Of a DNA stretch of 64,000 bases, positions 650-55,490 are shown in pieces. The position numbers and the translations under genes were made by a program. Position 1 is the first letter of the stretch; each line of letters starts with the position of its first letter. The notes under the pieces are model-generated. The model worked only from the letters and a program-made list of their open reading frames with translations, had not been told where the DNA came from and did not search any database. Source of the DNA: Chloroflexota bacterium (GTDB lineage Bacteria > Chloroflexota > Ktedonobacteria > Ktedonobacterales > Ktedonobacteraceae); the NCBI GenBank assembly GCA_902812455.1, contig CADDZH010000011.1, positions 6,381 through 70,380 of the forward strand. Direction: 5' to 3'.

Positions 650-1645
650 ATGTATCCACCTGTTAGCCCGATTCTTGTCCAGATAGGACCCGTTGCTATT
701 CACTGGTATGGCCTGATCATGGCAGTGGCTATCCTTGTGGGGACCCTGGTAGCCAGCCATTACGTGGGCCGGCATGGGCAGAACCCTGCTACGATCACGG
801 AAATGCTGATGTGGGTCCTCATACCAGCACTTGTCGGCGCGCGCCTGTATTACGTCTTTATCCAATCCCCGCGTGGCCCTAATGGTCTCGACCAATACCT
901 GGCTCATCCTATTCAAATCCTGGAGGTCTGGGACGGTGGTATTCACATTTATGGCGCCTTCATTCTTGGAGGTATCGCTGTATTCGTCTTCCTGATTAAG
1001 CGCAAACTCCCGATCCCCATCTACCTGGATGCCATTGGGCTGGGATTGTTGATAGGCCAGGCAATTGGTCGCTTAGGCAACTTTATTAACCAGGAATTGT
1101 ATGGCCCTCCAACAACACTGCCCTGGGGCTTGCGCATAGATCCCCAGCACCGTGTTCCACCTTATAATGATTTGACACGTTATCCTGAAAGCACGCTTTT
1201 CCAACCCCTGTTTCTCTACGAACTAATCTGGAATGCCATCGGCTTCTTCCTGTTGCTGTGGATCTCGCGCCGCTTCCAGAAACGGTTGCGCGATGGCGAC
1301 CTTTTCCTGCTCTACTTGATCTGGTACCCCTTTGGCCGTTTCTGGCTGGAATTCATGCGCACAGACTCCTGGTTCTTCCCAGGTACTCACTTCAACCTAG
1401 TTCATATACTATCTGCCATAGCGATTATAGGCGCCTCGATCATCCTCTACCTGCGCCATCGCCGGCAGCCATCCCATCTGCAAGCCGAAGCTGCAAGTGG
1501 CCCGCAAGCCAACGAGCCCGGGGCAAGCTCTATCGCCTTCGAGCGCACTAGCCCCGGCTCGAGCCACCCTCTTCAGGGAAGCGGTAATAGCGAAGGCGCA
1601 AGGGAGGGCCAGGGGATAACACAGGATTCGAGCGTCCAGACGTAG
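650..1645 (+). CDS. lgt: Prolipoprotein diacylglyceryl transferase
   Basis: Lgt moves a diacylglyceryl group from phosphatidylglycerol to the lipobox cysteine of prolipoproteins, the first step of lipoprotein maturation at the membrane. The 331-residue product has several membrane segments, the N-terminal HWYGLIMA motif, and the Lgt signature AIGRLGNFINQELYG at about residues 138-152 with the essential Arg at 141. After the last membrane helix (about residue 265) there is an unusual polar tail of about 60 residues rich in Ala, Ser, Gly and Glu. A GAGGAGAG ribosome site ends a few bases before the ATG. A substrate in this window is the BMP lipoprotein at 13.7 kb. Identification is firm; the tail has no known role. 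Confidence 0.95.
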   Translation: MYPPVSPILVQIGPVAIHWYGLIMAVAILVGTLVASHYVGRHGQNPATITEMLMWVLIPALVGARLYYVFIQSPRGPNGLDQYLAHPIQILEVWDGGIHIYGAFILGGIAVFVFLIKRKLPIPIYLDAIGLGLLIGQAIGRLGNFINQELYGPPTTLPWGLRIDPQHRVPPYNDLTRYPESTLFQPLFLYELIWNAIGFFLLLWISRRFQKRLRDGDLFLLYLIWYPFGRFWLEFMRTDSWFFPGTHFNLVHILSAIAIIGASIILYLRHRRQPSHLQAEAASGPQANEPGASSIAFERTSPGSSHPLQGSGNSEGAREGQGITQDSSVQT

Positions 1646-1754
1646 GGCAGGGCTTTTCAAACTTCCACAAACGTGGTACTATGCGCCTGTGCTTTTTCAG
1701 ACCTCATCGTATCGTCAACGTAGGTTTTTACTAAACCTGAATGGAAGCCAGCGT

Positions 1755-2534
1755 ATGGATACCCGGCCAGCATCTCAAGCTATGCAGAAACGGGAAATTC
1801 ATTTTCCCAACGGGAACCGGGCACAGGCAATCTTTCTGCCTGCTGGTGCTCATGTCACCGGTGATCTCCTGCTCACGCTGGGTATACAACAGCCCAACGC
1901 CGTCATTATCATTACTGGTGGCGCCTCTGAGATGGATAAGCAAGCGTATCCCGATCTGGCCCGGTTATTTACGCATGGTATCGCGCAGGTTGCAGCCTCC
2001 ACAAAAGCGTTAATCATTGATGGTGGCACGCAGGTGGGCGTGATGGCCATCATGGGGCAGGCAGTAGCCGGGCAACGGCGAAGATCAACCCTATTAGGCG
2101 TCGCTCCGGCGTGGAGCGTCACATATCCCGGCAAAGCGACCGGCATGGACGATAATAAAGGTGTGCCACTCGATCCTGACCATTCCCACTTTGTCCTGGT
2201 AGAGACCGCTGAATGGGGAAGCGAGACCGAAACGATGTACGAGCTGGCGCAGGCGCTTTCCAGGGATTGTCCTTCACTAGCTGTTCTCATCAACGGCGGT
2301 TCTATCGCCAAAAACGAGGTATTGTATAATGTGCGCCAGCAGCGACCCATTATTGTTATAGAGGGCGCCGGGCGGTTAGCAGATGAGATTGCCAGGCTAT
2401 GGCGCGAGAAACCATCTTCCATTCCTGATCCCCAATTGGCCGAGGTTATCCTGCATGGGAACGTGCATGTGTTTCCGCTTACCGGCCCAGCAACAGAGCT
2501 GGTGCAACTGACTAAGCGCCTATTAGATAGATAA
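1755..2534 (+). CDS. SLOG-superfamily protein of the prokaryotic TRPM/LSDAT type
   Basis: The 259-residue product has the Rossmann-like SLOG fold pattern of the LSDAT_prok family, related to the N-terminal ligand-sensing region of TRPM channels. Visible landmarks are IITGGASEMD (residues 52-61), DGGTQVGVMAIMG (from residue 89), a GVAP...YPG loop, a HSHFVLVE strand, a WGSETE segment, INGGSIAKNE and a late GAGRLADE loop. SLOG proteins are predicted to bind or process nucleotide-derived ligands. No membrane helix is seen, so it should be cytosolic. I chose the ATG at 1755 because GGAAG lies 7 bases upstream; an in-frame GTG at 1689 would add 22 non-conserved residues. It is 39 bases from the TPR gene and then the TIR-STAND gene, all co-directional, which suggests a shared signalling function. 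Confidence 0.8.
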   Translation: MDTRPASQAMQKREIHFPNGNRAQAIFLPAGAHVTGDLLLTLGIQQPNAVIIITGGASEMDKQAYPDLARLFTHGIAQVAASTKALIIDGGTQVGVMAIMGQAVAGQRRRSTLLGVAPAWSVTYPGKATGMDDNKGVPLDPDHSHFVLVETAEWGSETETMYELAQALSRDCPSLAVLINGGSIAKNEVLYNVRQQRPIIVIEGAGRLADEIARLWREKPSSIPDPQLAEVILHGNVHVFPLTGPATELVQLTKRLLDR

Positions 2535-2573
2535 GATTCTCTTTTAATGATGCTGATGCAAAGGGAGGGTACT

Positions 2574-3764
2574 ATGCGACGGCGGAAACTCTGGTGGAGT
2601 ATCATACTGCTATTTCTCGTGGCTTCTTGTTTCCTGGCACTCATACCTGGTACACACGTGCTTGCTAATGTCGCTCACAACGCTGTCTACCTTAGCGGCC
2701 CAACTCCTACTCCTGATGCCAGTACTACCCTCCAGATGGCGCAGCAGGAGGAGACAAGCATTCAAACCATCCTGAACATTATCAACATCCTTGTCGTTGT
2801 CTATCCCATCCTGATCACCCTGGCAGCCGCGCTGCTCGGCTTTTTTGGCTTCCGAGGGTTCCGCACGCTCGAAAAACAGGGACAGGACCTCCTGGAAGAT
2901 ATAAAGAAACTTCAGGTGGAAGCGGCTGAGAAGAAAGAGACAATTGAACGCACCCAGGAAGCGCTTGTCTATCTTGCTCTAGGCGACCGCTTCTCTAATC
3001 AGAACGAAACCAGGGAAGCTATCGCAGCCTATAAAAAAGCCGGTAGCCTCCTGCCAAGCGATCCTCAAATTAACTACGTGCTGGGCCGCATTTACAGCGG
3101 CATTGGCTATTATGATGAGGCCATCAGGTCGTTTGAAGCGGCTCTTGCTACTAAACCGGAGTTTCCTGAGGCTGAAATGGAGCTGGGTCTGGCTTATCGC
3201 CGTCGCGGAGAGTACCAGAAAGGCCCTGATGCACAGGCAAAGCGCGATCAGGACTATGAGAAAGCCATCGAACATTTGCTGGGCGCGACCCAATTACGTC
3301 CTAACTATGACGATGCCTTGAGCACGCTTGGTGGGCTTTATCGACGCAAGGGAGAATACGAGAAGGCCCTGGAATATTATGAGGATGCCTATCATGCCGA
3401 TCCCAGCTCTTCTTATGCGCTTGGAAATCTCGCCAGTCTTTCCTGGTACTTAGGAAAGCTGGACAAAGCTCGCCAGTACTACATGCTCACAGAATTGATG
3501 GCAGCGGATCGTATGAAGGCGGCGCACGCTGAGGTGTTCTGGGACTATTACGATCTGGCGCTGGCCCAACTGGCACTGGGAAAGACGGAAGAGGCGAAGA
3601 AAAGCTATGCCAAAGCTATCGGCGAGACTCCTGGCGTCGTGCAATTTGATAGCGTCCTCAACATTCTTTATTTGCTACAAAAGGCGAAAGACCCCATCCA
3701 GGGTTTAGATGAGGTTATTCTGATGATAGAGCGAGAGAAAGCCTCCAGAGTCTCTCGCGGGTGA
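2574..3764 (+). CDS. Membrane-anchored TPR protein with coiled coil
   Basis: The 396-residue protein starts with a basic N-terminus and a hydrophobic segment (residues 6-27), has a second hydrophobic helix at about 65-92, then a charged coiled-coil stretch (KQGQDLLEDIKKLQVEAAEK region) and a chain of about six TPR units to residue 380. Two membrane crossings would place the TPR array back in the cytoplasm, where the SLOG and TIR-STAND products of neighbouring genes should be. TPR arrays are protein-interaction scaffolds. The ATG at 2574 is preferred over 2547 because it has a strong AAGGGAGGGT site 3-12 bases upstream. No enzyme motif is visible. Its position between a SLOG gene and a TIR gene suggests a membrane platform or effector partner, which is inference. 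Confidence 0.7.
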   Translation: MRRRKLWWSIILLFLVASCFLALIPGTHVLANVAHNAVYLSGPTPTPDASTTLQMAQQEETSIQTILNIINILVVVYPILITLAAALLGFFGFRGFRTLEKQGQDLLEDIKKLQVEAAEKKETIERTQEALVYLALGDRFSNQNETREAIAAYKKAGSLLPSDPQINYVLGRIYSGIGYYDEAIRSFEAALATKPEFPEAEMELGLAYRRRGEYQKGPDAQAKRDQDYEKAIEHLLGATQLRPNYDDALSTLGGLYRRKGEYEKALEYYEDAYHADPSSSYALGNLASLSWYLGKLDKARQYYMLTELMAADRMKAAHAEVFWDYYDLALAQLALGKTEEAKKSYAKAIGETPGVVQFDSVLNILYLLQKAKDPIQGLDEVILMIEREKASRVSRG

Positions 3765-3827
3765 TGTTCGCGCATCTGGTAAGGAGTTCGCCGCCATGAA
3801 TGGGGCAACTACAGGAGACTCAGCCCT

Positions 3828-6800
3828 ATGGAAGTTGCAGCACAAACGCGCCCACGTATCTTTGTAAGCCATAGCAGCAAAGATAATGAGTTTGGCGTCC
3901 GGCTTGTTCAAGACTTGCGTCGTACATTGGGAGACGATGATGCTGTCTGGTACGATTCGCATGGGGGATTATTTGCTGGAGATGCCTGGTTCAAAGTAAT
4001 CACGAAGGAACTGATTGCTCGCCCCGTCTTTATTGTTATTCTCTCGCCTGATGCTCTGGCTTCAAATTGGGTACAGGATGAAATAAGTATTGCCTGGAAC
4101 CAAAAAAATACAGCCGCCGGAAAACTTATTATTCCCATCCTCTACCGGGATTGTAAGGTGCCGGAACACCTTAACACGCTCCAGATGATTTCGTTTCTCT
4201 CTCCTGAATCCTATGAGCACGCTTTCCAACAATTGTGTGAGGCGCTCTTCCGCAAACCGAAGCCCTCGCTAACATGGCCAGAGCTATGTAACTGCTGCAA
4301 GCATATTACCGAGAAGATGTCCAGCTTACGCAGACACCAGGATTTAGATAAACTGTATGTACAGAGAAAAAACGTGCATGATCAGTTCATGCGCTTTCTT
4401 GCCGATCCAGAGACGCGATGTTTTGTCCTGTTAGGGAAATCGGGAGCTGGAAAAAGTAGTTTTCTTCTTTCTTTAGCTGAGGAAATGCAACCCGAAGAAG
4501 GACAATCCGCAGATGATCTAAAAAGGATTATGCTTCTCTATGATGGAGGCCTGCTAGGAGATACCCCCTTTATGAAAGCTGTCAATCAGGATTTCAGCCG
4601 TGAACTTGGGAGGAGAGTAGAGGACATATGGCAAGAAATAGCCAGGATTGACGGGATTGACAGGCATCTAGTTCTTTTATGTATAGATGCCGTGAATGAG
4701 AGTGAGCGAGCAACAGAGATTGTTAAGCAAGTCAATACACTGATCAGAAACGACTGGCCCTGGCTGAAAGTCCTCTTGATCTCGCGGCCAGAATCCTGGC
4801 GCATCATTAGGCAAGACATCCTCTCCACGTTACCTGATGCCCTTTACTACCGGGGAGAAGAAAATATCGCCGCGGAAGAACGCTTCAATTACTCGGCGCA
4901 AATGCAACCATTTTCGCTTGAAGAACTTCCACAGGCCTATGCTAAGTATCAGCAGGAATATCAGATACAAACACCATACGAGGAGCTGTCCCCTAGAATA
5001 CGAGAGATCATCAGCGATCCCTTTAATCTCTGGTTAGTAGCAAAGAATCACCGCAGCAAAAAAATTCCTTCTAATCTGAAGGTTTCAGAGCTGGTAGGGC
5101 AGTACCTGATAGCTCTCATCAAAGAGGGAAAGTTGCAAGAAGGAGACTGGCGGTTTTTAGAGGATAAACTGATACCGCTCATGACGAAAGATGATCATAC
5201 TTTCAGCAATACGATCACGGCAGCAGATCTTAAAGCGGCTGGTAGTAGCGTTTATAATACGGTTTACAATGATCAGTTGGCGAATGGGCAGCGGGCAAAC
5301 GCGCCGTTTCTCAGGCTCTGCGATGCGGATATCCTCATGTTGCAAGAGCAGGGAACCATCAAATTCACGCATGAACGGTTCTATGAGCACTTTGTTGGCG
5401 AGAGAATAGCCTTCCTCAGCAAAACCCAGCCTGATCGCTACACCTTCTTCCTGAAGTTGATTGAAGAGATAACCGGCAAGCAGGCAACAACCAGTAAGAA
5501 GAAGATACCTGGCAAGCCTTTCCTGTGGGGAGCTGTCAGAAATGCGCTTGTAAAAGAGGCAAGGCAGCCAGAATCCGAGGCGGTTCTCAAACTCTGCCAA
5601 ACGGCTGAGCTGCAAGTGAAAGAGATGATGGTGAACGTACTCATTACCCTTGGGCAAGATTTCCAGGAGCAGGCTGAGGAGCTTCTGAGGGAACTGGTGC
5701 CGGAGGAAAAGAAAGCATCCGAGTGGCAGAAAATCCGCCAGGTGGTGAAAAAAAGTGCTAAAGGATCTGATATCGCCTCGCGCAACGCGGGAAGAATTGC
5801 TATAGAGGTTGCCAGCACACTGGGGATTACCTGGGCGCTGCACCGGGCCGCGCTGCAAGAGGATCAATCTTTGCGAACCGCAGCGGTACTCTATAGCTAT
5901 TACCTCTGGCAACACGATCGCGCCGCAGGGTTTGCCGTCCTCGAGTACATCGCTGAGAAGGCGACCAGCGGCACACTCCCCAATTTTGTGGCCTTTGAGT
6001 CGGTGTTTGGCTTATCAATGCTCATCTTCTGTGACCACTTCGAGGACGAGGAAGTACTTAGTAAGTTGCAAGACATCTGGCGTGGCATGATTGCCAAATT
6101 GTTTCATATTCACGAGGGCAGCAGCCCGTTGAAAGGCATGGTGCGCGACTTCGCGCGGGAGCGCATTATCTCCTTCGTCATCACCGTTGTTTTCGGCTTA
6201 TTTCGCCAGTTGCCCCCATCCTACAGTATGTTGAGCTATCCGGCTCTTGAGGCCTTTTTTCAACTCGGGCCTGATAAAAAGCAACTCTATCGCAATCTGG
6301 TCCAGTATCTCGATGTAAAGGGCGAGGAAGAAGGAACATATTCCAGGGAACAGATGGAGCGCGACTACCTAGCAGTGCTGCATATTGACAATGTTTTCAT
6401 GAGCTTTACCACCCTCATGGGCCTTGTCGCCCATGCCTGCTCGGCCCCACAGGACTTTTTACCCTTCCTCAAACTGCTCTTTGAAGAAGCGAAAAAAGAT
6501 GTCACGACTTATCCCTACCTGACTGTGATCGCCAATGTGGCTATGAATGTCTTACATCGCGATCCGATGAACGATGAAATGTTTGACTTTTTCGTGTATG
6601 TAATCGAAATCCTCCAGGATGCATATACTCAGCATCCTGAGACCTATCATAGTCGTATGAACGAAGCTCCACAAGCTGCTGCTCTGGCACCCTATATCCT
6701 CACCCAATATCGACGAGCCCAAAATCGGCAGGCAGAGACACTTAGAACGCGCTTACTTGAGTCGCGCATCCAGGCGGCTCTCTCAGAGGAAAAATCAGAG

Positions 6801-7259
6801 AAAAAACTGAAATTCTTTGAGTTCCTGCTCACCTCGGAATTACCCCAGGTAGGGATTGAGAATCAGGAACCACGAGCCGCCCTGGCCGTATTGGAGATGT
6901 TTTTCACGAGCAATGATAAAGATATCACCCCCATGATCCAGGCCTTTCTGTCCCGCCTGCGCATCTACTATCCTGATGAAGTAGATGCCTTCCTGATGGA
7001 GCAGCAGGCTTCCGATGAATTTCGCTTGCAGGTGCGCACGCATGAGCCTGTTGAAAAGATCGGAGACCTGGTTGGAAAAAGAGCCTGGTATTTCGCCCGT
7101 GACAAAGTCCTGTTAGGCCCACCAGAGCTGCGGTCTCAATTTGTAGGCCTGTTTGAGAAAGCTGCTGAGTATAAGCACTTAAAGACCTGGATAGATTATA
7201 TGATTCGTTATCTGGTTAATCTGATTTATGGAGGAGAAGCCCTGCGCCCATCAAAGTAA
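3828..7259 (+). CDS. TIR-domain STAND-type NTPase with long helical C-terminus
   Basis: The 1143-residue protein begins with a TIR domain (about residues 8-140). It has RIFVSHSSKD in the first strand and SNWVQDE with Glu85 at the position of the catalytic glutamate of NAD-consuming TIRs. An NTPase module follows: Walker A GKSGAGKSS at 203-211 and a Walker B-like LLCIDAVNE with Asp287, then an RPESW sensor-like motif typical of STAND/NACHT ATPases. The remaining ~650 residues are predominantly helical and repeat-like, as in sensor regions that recognise a trigger. Related TIR-STAND proteins in bacteria act in anti-phage immunity by degrading NAD+ or making cyclic ADP-ribose-type signals. ATG 3828 has AGGAGA about 9 bases upstream. 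It is the third gene of the SLOG/TPR/TIR run and is followed by a repeat. Confidence 0.85.
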   Translation: MEVAAQTRPRIFVSHSSKDNEFGVRLVQDLRRTLGDDDAVWYDSHGGLFAGDAWFKVITKELIARPVFIVILSPDALASNWVQDEISIAWNQKNTAAGKLIIPILYRDCKVPEHLNTLQMISFLSPESYEHAFQQLCEALFRKPKPSLTWPELCNCCKHITEKMSSLRRHQDLDKLYVQRKNVHDQFMRFLADPETRCFVLLGKSGAGKSSFLLSLAEEMQPEEGQSADDLKRIMLLYDGGLLGDTPFMKAVNQDFSRELGRRVEDIWQEIARIDGIDRHLVLLCIDAVNESERATEIVKQVNTLIRNDWPWLKVLLISRPESWRIIRQDILSTLPDALYYRGEENIAAEERFNYSAQMQPFSLEELPQAYAKYQQEYQIQTPYEELSPRIREIISDPFNLWLVAKNHRSKKIPSNLKVSELVGQYLIALIKEGKLQEGDWRFLEDKLIPLMTKDDHTFSNTITAADLKAAGSSVYNTVYNDQLANGQRANAPFLRLCDADILMLQEQGTIKFTHERFYEHFVGERIAFLSKTQPDRYTFFLKLIEEITGKQATTSKKKIPGKPFLWGAVRNALVKEARQPESEAVLKLCQTAELQVKEMMVNVLITLGQDFQEQAEELLRELVPEEKKASEWQKIRQVVKKSAKGSDIASRNAGRIAIEVASTLGITWALHRAALQEDQSLRTAAVLYSYYLWQHDRAAGFAVLEYIAEKATSGTLPNFVAFESVFGLSMLIFCDHFEDEEVLSKLQDIWRGMIAKLFHIHEGSSPLKGMVRDFARERIISFVITVVFGLFRQLPPSYSMLSYPALEAFFQLGPDKKQLYRNLVQYLDVKGEEEGTYSREQMERDYLAVLHIDNVFMSFTTLMGLVAHACSAPQDFLPFLKLLFEEAKKDVTTYPYLTVIANVAMNVLHRDPMNDEMFDFFVYVIEILQDAYTQHPETYHSRMNEAPQAAALAPYILTQYRRAQNRQAETLRTRLLESRIQAALSEEKSEKKLKFFEFLLTSELPQVGIENQEPRAALAVLEMFFTSNDKDITPMIQAFLSRLRIYYPDEVDAFLMEQQASDEFRLQVRTHEPVEKIGDLVGKRAWYFARDKVLLGPPELRSQFVGLFEKAAEYKHLKTWIDYMIRYLVNLIYGGEALRPSK

Positions 7260-7274
7260 CAGTTATCCGAACTG

Positions 7275-7372
7275 TGTCATGTTGAGCGAGTGAGCAGAAG
7301 CCCTGAACGCGCGTGAAGAGGAAACACCCGCTGCCGATCGACAGAGATCCGCAGGCTTCGCTCAGGATGACA
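7275..7372. repeat. Dispersed repeat family A, copy 1
   Basis: Starts TGTCATGTTGAGCGAG and ends CTTCGCTCAGGATGACA, so the two ends are imperfect inverted copies of the TCATCCTGAGCG motif seen at seven other places in the window. It closes the SLOG/TPR/TIR gene run. No coding capacity. Confidence 0.75.
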
Positions 7373-7460
7373 GAGTGGAAGTGCCCAATTGCCCGTAATT
7401 CACGTATCTGTGAGCACTGGTTTCAGTCATTAAAATTCACCAATAGAAAAGAGATGCCCA

Positions 7461-8225
7461 ATGACGCGAAAACGAGACCACACGCCATTTATTAGCGCCC
7501 ACCAGGGAAACTGCGGAGTTCCTGAGCTGCCCCTGGCCGAACGCTACGGGTGCGCCATTGACCTTAAGGTCGATTATGTGGAGCTTGATGTGAGGAGGAC
7601 AAAGGATGGCATCTATGTGATCTGCCACGACGAGTACACTCCCTCAAAGAGGCGCGTGGACGAGCTATCATATGAAGAATATAGAAGCGAACTGGGCGAC
7701 CAGGCACTGATTGTGCCCGAACTCTTAACGATTGCCAAGGGAAGAGTTGGCCTGCATGTCGATCTCAAAGAGACCGGCTACGAGGATGACATCATAAGAC
7801 TGATTCTGAGTTACGTATCCGCTGATGAGTTTATTATCACTACCCTGGAAGATGTGTCGATCAAGGTAATCAAGGAAAGGTTTCCCGCGATCAAAGCTGG
7901 CCTGTCGCTGGGCCGGGACATGAGGGGAGCCAGTATCTTCAAGCAACTTAGCGTGCGGCTGAGCGAGCTATTCCCAGGGAAACGCCTGCAGAAGAGCCAT
8001 GCGGACTTTGTTGCCGCGCAATATTTCCTGGCAACTATCAATGTACTACGGTACTGTGCGAGCAAGGGCATTCCCGTCTGGGTCTGGACGGTAGACAATG
8101 AGCGTAGCATGCTGCGCTTTCTTAAAGACCCCAGAGTTACAACGCTGATCACGAATAAGCCAGAAGTTGCTCTACCGTTGCGGGCTAAAATAGCATCAAC
8201 ACCTATAGCCCCGGATTCGCGCTAG
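7461..8225 (+). CDS. Glycerophosphodiester phosphodiesterase-family protein
   Basis: The 254-residue product fits the TIM-barrel GDPD family, which cleaves glycerophosphodiesters to glycerol 3-phosphate and an alcohol. The N-terminal ISAHQGN replaces the usual HRG motif (Gln for Arg). YVELDVRRTKDG and ICHDEYT supply the metal-binding Glu-x-Asp and the second catalytic His. HVDLKE, VWVWTVD and ITNKPEVA match later barrel strands. No signal peptide is seen, so it should be cytosolic. The Arg-to-Gln change and the absence of the PENT segment leave activity and substrate uncertain. ATG 7461 has only a weak purine-rich site. The last 23 bases overlap the converging gene on the other strand. Confidence 0.75.
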   Translation: MTRKRDHTPFISAHQGNCGVPELPLAERYGCAIDLKVDYVELDVRRTKDGIYVICHDEYTPSKRRVDELSYEEYRSELGDQALIVPELLTIAKGRVGLHVDLKETGYEDDIIRLILSYVSADEFIITTLEDVSIKVIKERFPAIKAGLSLGRDMRGASIFKQLSVRLSELFPGKRLQKSHADFVAAQYFLATINVLRYCASKGIPVWVWTVDNERSMLRFLKDPRVTTLITNKPEVALPLRAKIASTPIAPDSR

Positions 8226-9231
8226 CCGTATCCCGTTCTTTTCGCGCTTTCTCCGCAATTTGCCAGGTAATGCGATCATCTCCAACAATTGTGCCCGTTG
8301 TTTTTAGCATATCCTCACCTTCAACATCCAGGTTTGCAAAGAGGCCCCGTTCATGTGCCTGCTTAAGTAGCCTTATAAAATTTTTAATGCCTAAATCATA
8401 TAATCCAGTGCCCACGTATGCTGATTTGCTCGTATCCCTCTCTCTAGCCAGTCCATGATAAACGAATGCCGATCGTTCACCCTTCTTTCTCCCAAAAATA
8501 TCTCTCAATATAGCTGCAGGGCTTTTCGGGTCGATGTGAACCGGAAAGAGAAGAATATCGTTTTCTTCTGCATCTTTTAACCCATACACTACCCCGTGCG
8601 TCCTGGACATCCGCCACCTTCTTACCCATGGTATGTGATTAAGTTCTGGGAAAACCGGTTGCCAGAGCGCCATCTCCCTCTCATAATCTGGATGCTCTGG
8701 TTGCATATCGACGAGAGGATGCCTGCCATCTTCAAGCAGCGTATTACCAATAGCTACTCTTCCAGCATTTTCTCCCCTGGGATCGGAGAAAAATGTCCAG
8801 GGATTGTACCCCATCTTTCTGATCAGTACATGAAATTGCGCTGGAGTCAGCCCTTTAAGCATCAGAATATGTTCGCAATTGACTTCCTTATACAACTCCT
8901 GTTCCATGAGGGCTTGCAACGGCTTTTTATTCTCCTCTATCTCAAAGAGCGGTTTGAACGCCGGGTCTGTTACCAATGCATCGCGCTCAAGAACGCATAC
9001 TCTCACTGTAGCTTGTTTTAACGCTTTCTCCTCACCACGGCTTTCTGTTAGGCTTACAACAATACCGGGAATTCTCGAAATGAGTTCTCCAGGTTCTGTT
9101 TTTCTCGCCAGGCGCGTTCTCCAGGTTTCAGGCTGTGACGGCCCAAAAAGCTCACCCTTTATTTCGTCGTAACGCCTGCAACAATCTTCAAAGTCTGCTA
9201 ATCGTTGCTCAGCATTCTTGCCCTTTTCCAT
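8203..9231 (-). CDS. Hypothetical protein of unknown family
   Basis: I do not recognise this 342-residue protein. It is soluble, charged and rich in Glu, Lys and Arg, with no signal peptide, membrane helix or clear nucleotide-binding motif. Hydrophobic blocks such as CEHILMLKGLTPAQFHVLIR and EENDILLFPVHIDPKSPA suggest a folded alpha/beta core, and the C-terminus contains KNFIRLLKQAHERGLFANL. ORF length and coherent codon use support a real gene. It converges on the GDPD-like gene and overlaps its 3' end by 23 bases. The start ATG at 9231 has AAAGGG-like purines overlapping it rather than a well-placed ribosome site, so the start is uncertain. Confidence 0.6.
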   Translation of the reverse strand: MEKGKNAEQRLADFEDCCRRYDEIKGELFGPSQPETWRTRLARKTEPGELISRIPGIVVSLTESRGEEKALKQATVRVCVLERDALVTDPAFKPLFEIEENKKPLQALMEQELYKEVNCEHILMLKGLTPAQFHVLIRKMGYNPWTFFSDPRGENAGRVAIGNTLLEDGRHPLVDMQPEHPDYEREMALWQPVFPELNHIPWVRRWRMSRTHGVVYGLKDAEENDILLFPVHIDPKSPAAILRDIFGRKKGERSAFVYHGLARERDTSKSAYVGTGLYDLGIKNFIRLLKQAHERGLFANLDVEGEDMLKTTGTIVGDDRITWQIAEKARKERDTASANPGL

Positions 9232-9435
9232 GCATATTCAAACGAAAAAAGCCCATCCCTGGTCTCAGGAGAACATCTCATCGGCCTGCTAGTCAATCAA
9301 GCGCTGCTGTGCTATACTTCCTTGAAAAGTAATGCAAACATGCCGAGTTCAAAGGGCTTTATAAGAAGTATCGGAATAACAAAGAATTTGAGGATATCCT
9401 CTTCCACGACATTGAGACAGTTCTCTCGAAAAACC

Positions 9436-9536
9436 GGTTCTCCGTCCTTTGGGGTGATTGACGAGAAGTAGCCGATAAATCGGCAGTGGGCGCAATGAAT
9501 TGCGCCCCTACGGTTCACCCGGAAGGATGGAGACCC
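9436..9536. repeat. Dispersed repeat family B, copy 1 (complete)
   Basis: A complete copy: left arm GGTTCTCCGTCCTTTGGGGT, core with GCCGATAAATCGGC, a second hairpin, and right arm TTCACCCGGAAGGATGGAGA. The arms are imperfect inverted repeats of each other, so the whole unit can fold. It lies in the 375-base space before the membrane-protein gene, and another copy ends that gene. Confidence 0.8.
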
Positions 9537-9606
9537 GAAAAACCTTATGTAAGGTACTACAGGATACCACCCTGATTGGCTTACTCTCAAGGCGGAGACA
9601 CGAATC

Positions 9607-10680
9607 ATGAACATACAACAGGTGTTTGCCCGCAATAAACACTCGGGTGTGCTACTCGAGCGGTTTCTCATTGCCAGTGTTGCCACTGTGCTAGTGATCC
9701 GCTTCTACCTGGCGGCCAATGGCTACCCGCAAGTGGGAGGAGGTGTATTGCACATCTCGCATCTCCTCTGGGGCGGTCTGGGCATGCTCATTGCTATAGT
9801 GCTAGCTCTCGCATTCCTGGGGAGGCGAGTGCAGTCTATCGTGGCCGTGCTAGGGGGCATTGGCTTCGGCACCTTCATTGATGAGCTTGGAAAGTTCATT
9901 ACCAGCAACAACAATTATTTTTTTCAACCAACGATTGCGCTCATCTATATCATCTATATCATCCTGCTCCTGATCTTCCAGATACTCGAAAGCCGGCCAT
10001 ATATTTCTGAGCAGGAGCGCCTGGCAAATGCCCTGCATATTCTGGAGGAAAAAGCCCTGCACGATATGCATGAACAGGACAAGAAGGAAGTCCTCTTGCT
10101 CCTGCGCCCAAAGGACTCGCAGGAGTCCAGTTTGAAACTGCTGGCCGATGCAGTCGAGCGTATACCCGCGCTACCGGATAAGCCTCCAGGGCCACTGCAA
10201 AGAATGGCCCGCGCTACTAGAAACCTTTGGCATCATCTTATTGACGCACCGTATTTTGCCAGCATCATCATCTTCTTCTTTACTGGCTATGCGCTGCTCT
10301 TCACCCTGTTGATGATGCCTGGAATCGTGAATCTGGCAGTACACGACGTGATCACAGGCATCGTTAAAATCGGCTGGTTTGGCTCCTCGTTCTTATCCTA
10401 CGTGATGATTTTGATCGGCATATTATCCTTGCGGAGATCGCGCCTTGCGGCCTATACCTGGTTCAAGCGATACATACTCGTGTCGATTTTTCTCACCCAG
10501 GTCTTCCTGCTCTACACACGGCCTATGGGAGCGCTTGAAGGGTTGCTCGTGAATCTCATTGTACTGGCCGTTCTCAATTATCTGATACGCAACCAGCGGC
10601 TGGATTTACAGCAAAAAGGGTCTCCATCCTTTAGGGTGATCGACGAGAATGTGCCGATAAATCGGCGCTGGCCGCGATAA
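9607..10680 (+). CDS. Multi-pass membrane protein of unknown function
   Basis: The 357-residue protein has about eight hydrophobic helices in two blocks: residues 20-125, including the polar-in-membrane stretch GFGTFIDELGKFITSNNNYF, and residues 215-335. A soluble cytosolic loop (about 130-205, helical, rich in Lys and Glu) separates them. No transporter or enzyme signature is recognised. The start ATG at 9607 follows AAGGCGGAGA. The last 20 residues (GSPSFRVIDENVPINRRWPR) are translated from repeat B copy 2, so the native stop codon was probably lost when the repeat arrived. With copy 1 upstream, the gene is bracketed by two direct repeats. Confidence 0.65.
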   Translation: MNIQQVFARNKHSGVLLERFLIASVATVLVIRFYLAANGYPQVGGGVLHISHLLWGGLGMLIAIVLALAFLGRRVQSIVAVLGGIGFGTFIDELGKFITSNNNYFFQPTIALIYIIYIILLLIFQILESRPYISEQERLANALHILEEKALHDMHEQDKKEVLLLLRPKDSQESSLKLLADAVERIPALPDKPPGPLQRMARATRNLWHHLIDAPYFASIIIFFFTGYALLFTLLMMPGIVNLAVHDVITGIVKIGWFGSSFLSYVMILIGILSLRRSRLAAYTWFKRYILVSIFLTQVFLLYTRPMGALEGLLVNLIVLAVLNYLIRNQRLDLQQKGSPSFRVIDENVPINRRWPR

Positions 10681-54227: not shown

Positions 54228-55490
54228 TCACTTTATTGCTGTATCCTCAATGCCTGTTTGATAGCGAGTGAGGTAATAGCTGATCTGCTCGTCCGCGCTT
54301 TTGAGAACGTCTAATACTTCGTAGTAATGTAGCTCTTGCCATAACTGGGGAGCAATCTGCAGGATTCCCTCTTCAGGGAAATACTGCATGAAATGTTTGA
54401 TGAGGAAACGATCAAGAGGATAAGTAACGATAAGCCTTTTAAGAGCATTATCATTGGGCTTCATTGGATCTACGAGGGGAGAAGAAACTCGCTCTAATGG
54501 CTGGCCAGCGTCCATTTGTTGTATATAGTAATCCCTAAATTCTTTGACCAAATCATCTATCTTCACTTTGCCTTCGCGATCAACAAGCTTGAAAAAGGCT
54601 TTGATCATCACTGGCTTATATGATTTTGTCAGATTACGGCTCCTGGCAAAGTCAAGAAACTCTTGCTTCCATTCAGCACTCGATGCCGGAATGCTTTCCA
54701 GGCCAAGGCTTTCCCTGATCCGTCCAATGCGGTCGCGTCTAAAGTAATAAATTGTGCGTTCACCCAATGATTGAGAAACATCAGGCCGCAGCTTCTCATG
54801 CTCAATCCACCGGCGAATAGTTGTTGGATCAACGCGCAGAGCATAACTTAATGCGTTCAGGGAAACTAGGTCTTCTTCGGGCTTGAGGTCTATTGTTTGT
54901 TCTCCCGTTCCTCTATTAGAAGCTGCTGAGGAAGAGCTTACTTCATAATTCTGGCGTGCTTCGCTAACTCTATGAGCGAGAATCCCTTTTATAGCCTCGA
55001 ATGCCATGAAATAATCTGGATCAATATCAATCCTTTCAGAGTTTTTTGGGGAGGCTCGTAATCCCAGGTTATGCTCCACCATGACCGATACGATCTGATC
55101 GCCATCCAATGTGAGCACACGAGGGATAGAAGTCGAGGCTTTTTCCAAAGCGCCACGAGCATAATTTGCGGTTGTCATGAACAGGCCCTGTGAGAAGCGT
55201 CCTGACAAGGCCCCTATGAATTTCTCGATATCTGGACGCCGTACATTATTTCGATATCGCTTGACCTGTATTCCTGTTGGGATACGAAACCTGCCAGCTA
55301 TCAGGTCTCCCTGAGCATCAATACCACCATCACCGATGTAACGTGTGACAGCTATTGCCTCAAGTCCAACGTAGACTAGAAAGTCGCCAGCGAAGAACTC
55401 GAAGCTGCGTGCTGACATGGCAAGGAGCTGCTTTTTTAGTTCCCGTTTGATATCTGGATTGGTAGGCGGAGAGGAAGTATAAAGGGACAT
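54228..55490 (-). CDS. Mrr-like restriction endonuclease with helix-turn-helix and long C-terminus
   Basis: The 420-residue protein has an N-terminal PD-(D/E)xK nuclease of the Mrr type: SFEFFAGDFLVYVGLEAIAV, GDGGIDAQGD with Asp58, and GIQVKRYRNNVRRPDIEKFI with Gln75-x-Lys77, followed by QGLFMTTANYARGALEKA. A helix-turn-helix near residues 210-245 (SLNALSYALRVDPTTIRRWI) and a ~170-residue helical C-terminus follow. Mrr enzymes cut foreign or modified DNA. Its close linkage to a TIR gene and an orphan gene suggests a defence cassette. ATG 55490 has a modest AGAAAGAT site. Confidence 0.82.
   Translation of the reverse strand: MSLYTSSPPTNPDIKRELKKQLLAMSARSFEFFAGDFLVYVGLEAIAVTRYIGDGGIDAQGDLIAGRFRIPTGIQVKRYRNNVRRPDIEKFIGALSGRFSQGLFMTTANYARGALEKASTSIPRVLTLDGDQIVSVMVEHNLGLRASPKNSERIDIDPDYFMAFEAIKGILAHRVSEARQNYEVSSSSAASNRGTGEQTIDLKPEEDLVSLNALSYALRVDPTTIRRWIEHEKLRPDVSQSLGERTIYYFRRDRIGRIRESLGLESIPASSAEWKQEFLDFARSRNLTKSYKPVMIKAFFKLVDREGKVKIDDLVKEFRDYYIQQMDAGQPLERVSSPLVDPMKPNDNALKRLIVTYPLDRFLIKHFMQYFPEEGILQIAPQLWQELHYYEVLDVLKSADEQISYYLTRYQTGIEDTAIK

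Follow-up and report, generated by a model that had tools for sequence, protein, structure and literature searches.

Gene content of the locus

The window analysed here is a stretch of 64,000 nucleotides from a Chloroflexota bacterium of the Ktedonobacteraceae. Near its start lie three co-directional genes encoding a SLOG protein, a membrane-anchored TPR protein, and a TIR-STAND protein (Table 1). A preliminary description had placed these open reading frames, assigned them LSDAT/SLOG, TPR, and TIR plus P-loop domains, and reported an intact Walker A motif and Glu85 in the 1143-residue TIR-STAND. The positions and motifs are present in the sequence, and the domain calls were borne out by Pfam. 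The TPR reading frame reaches up to 2547 (405 aa); relatives of the protein (P0145, family alignment A3) start at the codon equivalent to 2574, which gives 396 aa and a gap of 39 bases to the SLOG gene. The gap between the TPR and TIR-STAND genes is 63 bases.

The three genes are flanked by lgt upstream of the SLOG gene and by GDPD downstream (Pfam). Twenty further open reading frames of the window were scanned; since they are mostly metabolic, transport or translation-related, with a single Mrr-type endonuclease, the locus does not resemble a defence island. Two reading frames, 8203-9231 (-) and 9607-10680 (+), have no Pfam match at E ≤ 0.01. Eight terminator-like sites were found in 1500-7700 against 5.8 expected (sd 2.3), which is within chance, so that an operon boundary derived from them was rejected and a single transcript for the three genes is possible.

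Table 1. Features of the locus and of its wider surroundings in the window
Feature	Position	Strand	Basis
TRPM-type SLOG (LSDAT), free-standing MHR1/2-like module, 259 aa	1755..2534	+	start ATG 1755
Trp154 codon, aligned with TRPM2 Tyr295 (adenine clamp)	2214..2216	+	alignment with 8e6t row
Codon of Arg207 of the GxGR motif, counterpart of TRPM2 Arg358 (phosphate contact)	2373..2375	+	alignment with 8e6t row
Membrane-anchored TPR protein, 396 aa	2574..3764	+	Pfam TPR families, family alignment A3
TIR-NACHT/STAND protein, 1143 aa, C-terminal helical repeat region	3828..7259	+	Pfam
Glu85 codon, putative TIR NADase catalytic glutamate	4080..4082	+	position by sequence, in W81-V-Q-D-E85
Walker A GKSGAGKS, residues 203-210	4434..4457	+	sequence
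Mrr-type restriction endonuclease domain (PF04471), well away from the three genes	54228-55490	-	Pfam

The SLOG protein and its membrane-TPR neighbor

The SLOG protein belongs to LSDAT_prok (PF18171, E 1.3e-53, 181.7 bits against a curated cut-off of 25.4), also matches PF18139 above its cut-off (E 7.9e-21), and carries no second domain in Pfam. Its predicted MHR1/2 fold is complete and spans the whole chain. Its putative pocket was compared with that of human TRPM2, whose residue numbers were counted by hand along the 8e6t row. Tyr295 of TRPM2 is named as a residue of the ADP-ribose site (PMC6759353); the corresponding position, Trp154, carries an aromatic residue (W or F) in 47/49 SLOGs, and the phosphate-contacting arginine at Arg207 is kept in 44 of 49, so both TRPM2-type features are retained. 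Glu157 is invariant (49/49). The ribose arginine, TRPM2 Arg302, is replaced by Met161 in the window and by Met, Ile or Leu in 47/49 SLOGs, and the position of Arg304 is occupied by Glu163. As neither position is an arginine in the window protein, the ligand may be something other than ADP-ribose itself. As judged from the alignment, the TRPM2 ADP-ribose pocket is only partly (half) kept.

The TPR protein shows, with its topology assigned by eye, a signal-peptide-like segment, a short outer stretch, one transmembrane helix, a helical linker, and cytosolic TPRs. Of the two-helix membrane TPR protein described before, the membrane and TPR assignments stand; the first helix may instead be a signal peptide because AxA-like sites follow it throughout the family (A3, judged by eye and not by a signal-peptide predictor), which would leave one transmembrane helix and a cytosolic TPR part. 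SLATT is absent from the 24 families listed for this protein (Pfam, E ≤ 0.01), and a SLATT domain was consequently rejected; Pfam likewise revealed no channel domain.

SLOG loci and their membrane partners

Outside the window, 48 SLOG loci were collected at E ≤ 1e-20, excluding four weak matches (E 2.5e-8 to 5.3e-4). The first 19 derive from one Beggiatoa and otherwise from Chloroflexota records or the phylum of genome G003; the other 29 come from the class to which the Caldilineaceae MAG G004 belongs, where 39/396 genomes are SLOG-positive. The protein exceeds the cut-off in 15/400 genomes of the phylum of G003 and in 1/398 of the phylum of G001, namely the seed itself. A membrane partner was recognised by local profiles and Pfam at 22/48 loci: a fused SLATT at eight, an adjacent SLATT/DUF4231 protein at four, an adjacent 8xMP at three, and an adjacent relative of the window's membrane-TPR protein, 0-114 bp away, at seven; none of these types is found at 26/48. 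The SLATT and 8xMP profiles were each built from two sequences. The literature search yielded no biological use of 8xMP.

At six of the seven SLOG-TPR loci (L075, L078, L081, L084, L085, and L086) both genes lie on the same strand with 0-114 bp between them; at L031 they are convergent and 41 bp apart. The TPR proteins of these loci share the window's order of leader, transmembrane helix, linker, and TPR (A3, which does not include L085). At L075, two membrane-TPR-like genes follow the SLOG gene in tandem (7813-10496 (+)), the second assigned from gene length and a pair of hydrophobic segments alone. On the other side of the SLOG gene, the six same-strand loci carry a MutY-type HhH-GPD/NUDIX protein, which also adjoins three SLOG-only loci; nine of ten neighbours tested as MutY were positive, that of L002 being negative (E 1e-10). 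No TIR domain was detected in the fetched stretch of any of the seven loci, that of L078 comprising just 5 kb.

Viral contigs contained relatives of neither the SLOG nor the STAND protein, and the searched plasmids none of the latter, so that these collections provide no indication of carriage by phages. Four SLOG relatives were found on plasmids, all below 60% identity. Plasmid SLOG proteins annotated as DUF4231 occur in Candidatus Chlorohelix allophototropha (L091, 7995-9872; judged from contig size and position, the same locus as G292:C5/L045), where a RelE/ParE gene and an integrase lie near the SLOG gene, and in Hymenobacter tibetensis (L092, 7022-9031).

Linkage and parallel divergence of the SLOG and TPR genes

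In metagenomic data, equal contig size in bp was taken as a sign of co-location, an indirect measure that says nothing on gene order. Among the best 120 of 379 SLOG and the best 120 of 510 TPR matches, 114 and 117, respectively, had a contig size and could be compared. Sizes coincide at 16 values, 15 of them above 3 kb, including the window's own contig; when sizes were shifted by 1-30 bases either way (60 shifts), a mean of 0.18 and a maximum of one coincidence above 3 kb resulted. The distances within both families are correlated, with r 0.947 over 22 pairs (0/5000 permutations, permutation maximum 0.586) and r 0.75 over the 15 metagenomic pairs including that of the window (0/5000, maximum 0.646). 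A high correlation of this kind can arise simply because the lineages are related, and shared ancestry contributes to it. One metagenomic pair is discordant (P0036 with 67%, P0220 with 47%).

The class of G356 was represented by 47 genomes (250 requested), with a TPR threshold of E ≤ 1e-35 applied to no more than 39 candidates from each genome. The SLOG protein was above the cut-off in G356 alone, the membrane-TPR protein was found in eight genomes including G356, and the STAND core was strong in one (G362) and weak in another. Seven of the eight TPR-bearing genomes thus have no SLOG, so the membrane-TPR family also exists without it. In G356, the SLOG gene has the TPR gene on one side and a multi-pass membrane protein gene on the other; in G276, a membrane-protein gene similar by eye directly follows the TPR gene, with no SLOG gene between them.

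The TIR-STAND protein and its relatives

The third protein combines TIR_2 (PF13676, E 8.2e-19) with a NACHT match (PF24883, scoring 28.5 bits where the cut-off is 24.8), and its NACHT fold, Walker A motif, and helical repeat tail are those of a TIR-NLR or bacterial NACHT protein. The TIR part of its structure model has pLDDT mostly below 50 and was left unused. Among 19 homologues the N-terminus differs: P0122-P0139 and the window protein display one tail type with several kinds of N-terminus, and the TIR and NTPase parts of the window protein and P0122 are more diverged from most other STANDs than the tail. In P0123, P0124, P0128, and P0139, residues 1-300 before the NACHT domain have no Pfam match (E ≤ 0.1) and may form an effector domain. 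The N-terminus of P0134, for which Pfam gave just TIR_2 below the cut-off, presumably resembles DUF4062.

The closest relative, P0122 (70-72% identical), lies on a 21.7-kb contig, a size absent from the best 120 SLOG and best 120 TPR matches. Seventeen STAND contig sizes were compared, with P0140-P0144 (five of 24 STAND matches) left out here and in alignment A2; they coincide with SLOG or TPR sizes at two values, 70,380 (the window's own) and 68,909. The 68,909 contig carries all three families (P0006, P0156, and P0124), with a non-TIR N-terminus on the STAND protein; identity to the window is 77% for SLOG, 82% for TPR, 43-44% for the STAND NTPase, and 67-68% for its tail. G362 possesses the STAND protein but has no match to the SLOG or to the TPR protein; there, a TIR gene (L030, 10385-11179 (-)) lies 73 bp upstream of the STAND gene, which has a non-TIR N-terminus.

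TIR genes near TRPM-type SLOGs

PF13676 (E ≤ 1e-13) occurs within 6 kb of 8/48 SLOGs, against 1.35 expected from the TIR density of the individual genomes (P about 4e-5), in G002 (twice), G003, G004, G196, G215, G292:C5, and G915; the 6-kb limit was chosen after the distances were seen. Without five seed loci, the figures are 4/43 and 1.25 (P 0.04). The expectation is raised because TIR counts at E ≤ 1e-3 were used for some genomes of the first sample, and nearness is uneven, with 7/19 among the first loci and 1/29 among the next. As the TIR tables extended down to about E 2e-13 and 7e-19, nearness was rechecked with a home-made profile on the fetched stretches; a weak match at L089 (E 1.9e-07) was not counted since its genome, G1060, has no match at 1e-13. 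Both TIR genes of G002 (E ≤ 1e-3) lie near its two SLOG genes, beside 8xMP, and the sole TIR genes of G196 and G215 likewise lie near a SLOG gene. Overall, a link of TIR to TRPM-type SLOGs is suggestive, with none at SLOG-TPR loci outside the window.

At L002 (2753-6743), L034 (10223-14083), and L044 (7215-11046), SLOG and 8xMP genes are followed 1.4-1.6 kb further by a TIR protein, which at L034 lies within an AAA-like protein and at L044 looks alike by eye. These loci contain all TIR genes found in G002 (two) and G196 (one) and represent a candidate sensor-membrane-TIR cassette. TIR, TRPM-type SLOG, and a membrane partner thus come in three arrangements, with TPR in the window, 8xMP in G002/G196, and SLATT in G292:C5.

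Relation to known systems

Some SLOG domains are proposed sensors of cADPR-like ligands, and SLATT is described as a membrane effector regulated by ADPr derivatives (PMC9503650, PMC7159879); the prediction of SLOG-SLATT conflict systems is credited to Burroughs et al. 2015 (PMC7159879). The pair in the window resembles SLOG-SLATT (DUF4231) in that a SLOG sensor is combined with a small membrane protein, and the same TRPM-type SLOG accompanies SLATT/DUF4231 at 12/48 loci, but the partner here is a TPR protein. SLOG-like TRPM domains bind ADPR derivatives and are mentioned together with the ThsA SLOG, which binds a TIR product (PMC11025887). Like Thoeris (ThsB TIR and ThsA SIR2-SLOG), the window has TIR and SLOG proteins as neighbours; unlike it, the TIR is fused to a STAND. 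Membership in Thoeris was rejected, as SIR2 is lacking and the SLOG is of another (TRPM) type; PADLOC gave no ThsA match at E ≤ 0.1, and the window SLOG has no SIR2 or macro/TM effector domain attached to it. From bacterial NLR-like STANDs (TIR-NLR, Avs, bNACHT), to which PADLOC gave weak matches (best E 7.4e-10, to the TIR part; TIR-NLR 4.7e-05), the window STAND differs in its SLOG and TPR neighbours. Compared with TRPM channels (MHR1/2, TRPM2 ADP-ribose site), the window parts are separate polypeptides, with no channel domain among the Pfam matches of the partner and with Arg302 not kept. The titles and abstract openings found name no SLOG plus membrane-TPR pair; Burroughs et al. 2015, outside this search, may mention it. 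The pair is a fresh variation on the known theme of SLOG sensors teamed with a membrane protein.

A proposed two-gene module and its alternatives

The reading favoured here, with a probability of roughly 0.55, is that two genes make up the conserved unit, a module of a free-standing TRPM MHR1/2-type SLOG sensor and a membrane-anchored cytosolic TPR transducer, the TIR-STAND being a separate, modular NLR-like receptor. For the pair, the computations show that the genes stay adjacent and diverge in parallel, that the MHR1/2 fold is complete as predicted from the sequence, and that part of the TRPM2 ADP-ribose pocket is kept. The SLOG protein would bind a nucleotide, either ADP-ribose-like or another phosphorylated adenine ligand, dock on the TPR solenoid, and relay its ligand state to the membrane through the TPR protein. 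The TIR-STAND would have ended up downstream of the pair in this lineage without being an obligate part, and its TIR may supply the SLOG ligand. In TRPM channels, the parts follow the order sensor, helical repeats, membrane; the proposed relay is similar in this order and resembles SLOG with SLATT in its logic.

The preliminary description had combined all three genes into one candidate defence system. In it, the STAND would respond to a trigger (infection) and produce an NAD-derived signal by means of its TIR; this signal would be read or edited by the SLOG, with the TPR protein acting at the membrane. This is now rather improbable, even though the excess of TIR near SLOGs, the TIR genes of G002, G196, and G215, and the STAND tail on the 68,909 contig speak for it. 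Opposed to this are the lack of TIR at the seven SLOG-TPR loci, the TIR-less STAND of the 68,909 contig with its far more divergent NTPase, and the unmatched contig of P0122. The three genes were expected to occur together in other genomes, and SLOG and TPR genes without TIR in a housekeeping setting were to count against the system; all three families occur in 0/47 genomes of the class of G356 (two of them just in G356, SLOG and TPR) and on one further contig, and SLOG and TPR without TIR lie beside mutY in six genomes, within the fetched stretches. What had been named as refuting the system was thus largely found: it is weakened and not conserved, SLOG and membrane TPR remain a real conserved pair, and TIR-STAND is not a constant member. 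A tempting three-gene system is thereby corrected to a two-gene pair.

It is also unlikely that SLOG-TPR is a housekeeping pair outside defence, e.g., one that relays membrane stress or deals with nucleotides that are damaged or in surplus, and that the TIR-STAND is an unrelated neighbour. The MutY-type neighbour, lgt ahead of the window SLOG, and Mrp-like and valyl-tRNA synthetase-like genes beside SLOGs elsewhere (named by eye) fit this, but the constant MutY position may reflect vertical descent alone, and SLATT/8xMP partners, DUF4231 plasmid copies, and TIR neighbours suggest that the SLOG family at large serves in signalling or conflict.

Quite doubtful is a split bacterial TRPM2-like device, in which a free MHR1/2 sensor would read a TIR-made NAD derivative and switch the TPR transducer, with lineages plugging different membrane outputs (TPR, SLATT, 8xMP) and different TIR-ATPase inputs into this one sensor. 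Chance adjacency of three unrelated genes, in line with the sporadic STAND (one strong match in 47 class genomes), is very improbable and, given the adjacency and parallel divergence of SLOG and TPR, largely refuted for these two.

Under the two-gene reading, a small, apparently soluble bacterial protein of 259 residues, for which a membrane partner is conserved, is predicted to represent the whole TRPM-type ligand-sensing module. If the split device were true, a sensor module of bacterial immunity would be the ancestor of TRPM channels or would have been assembled again in them. With so small a SLOG protein and its conserved partner, the origin and the ligand of the TRPM sensor become testable outside the channel.
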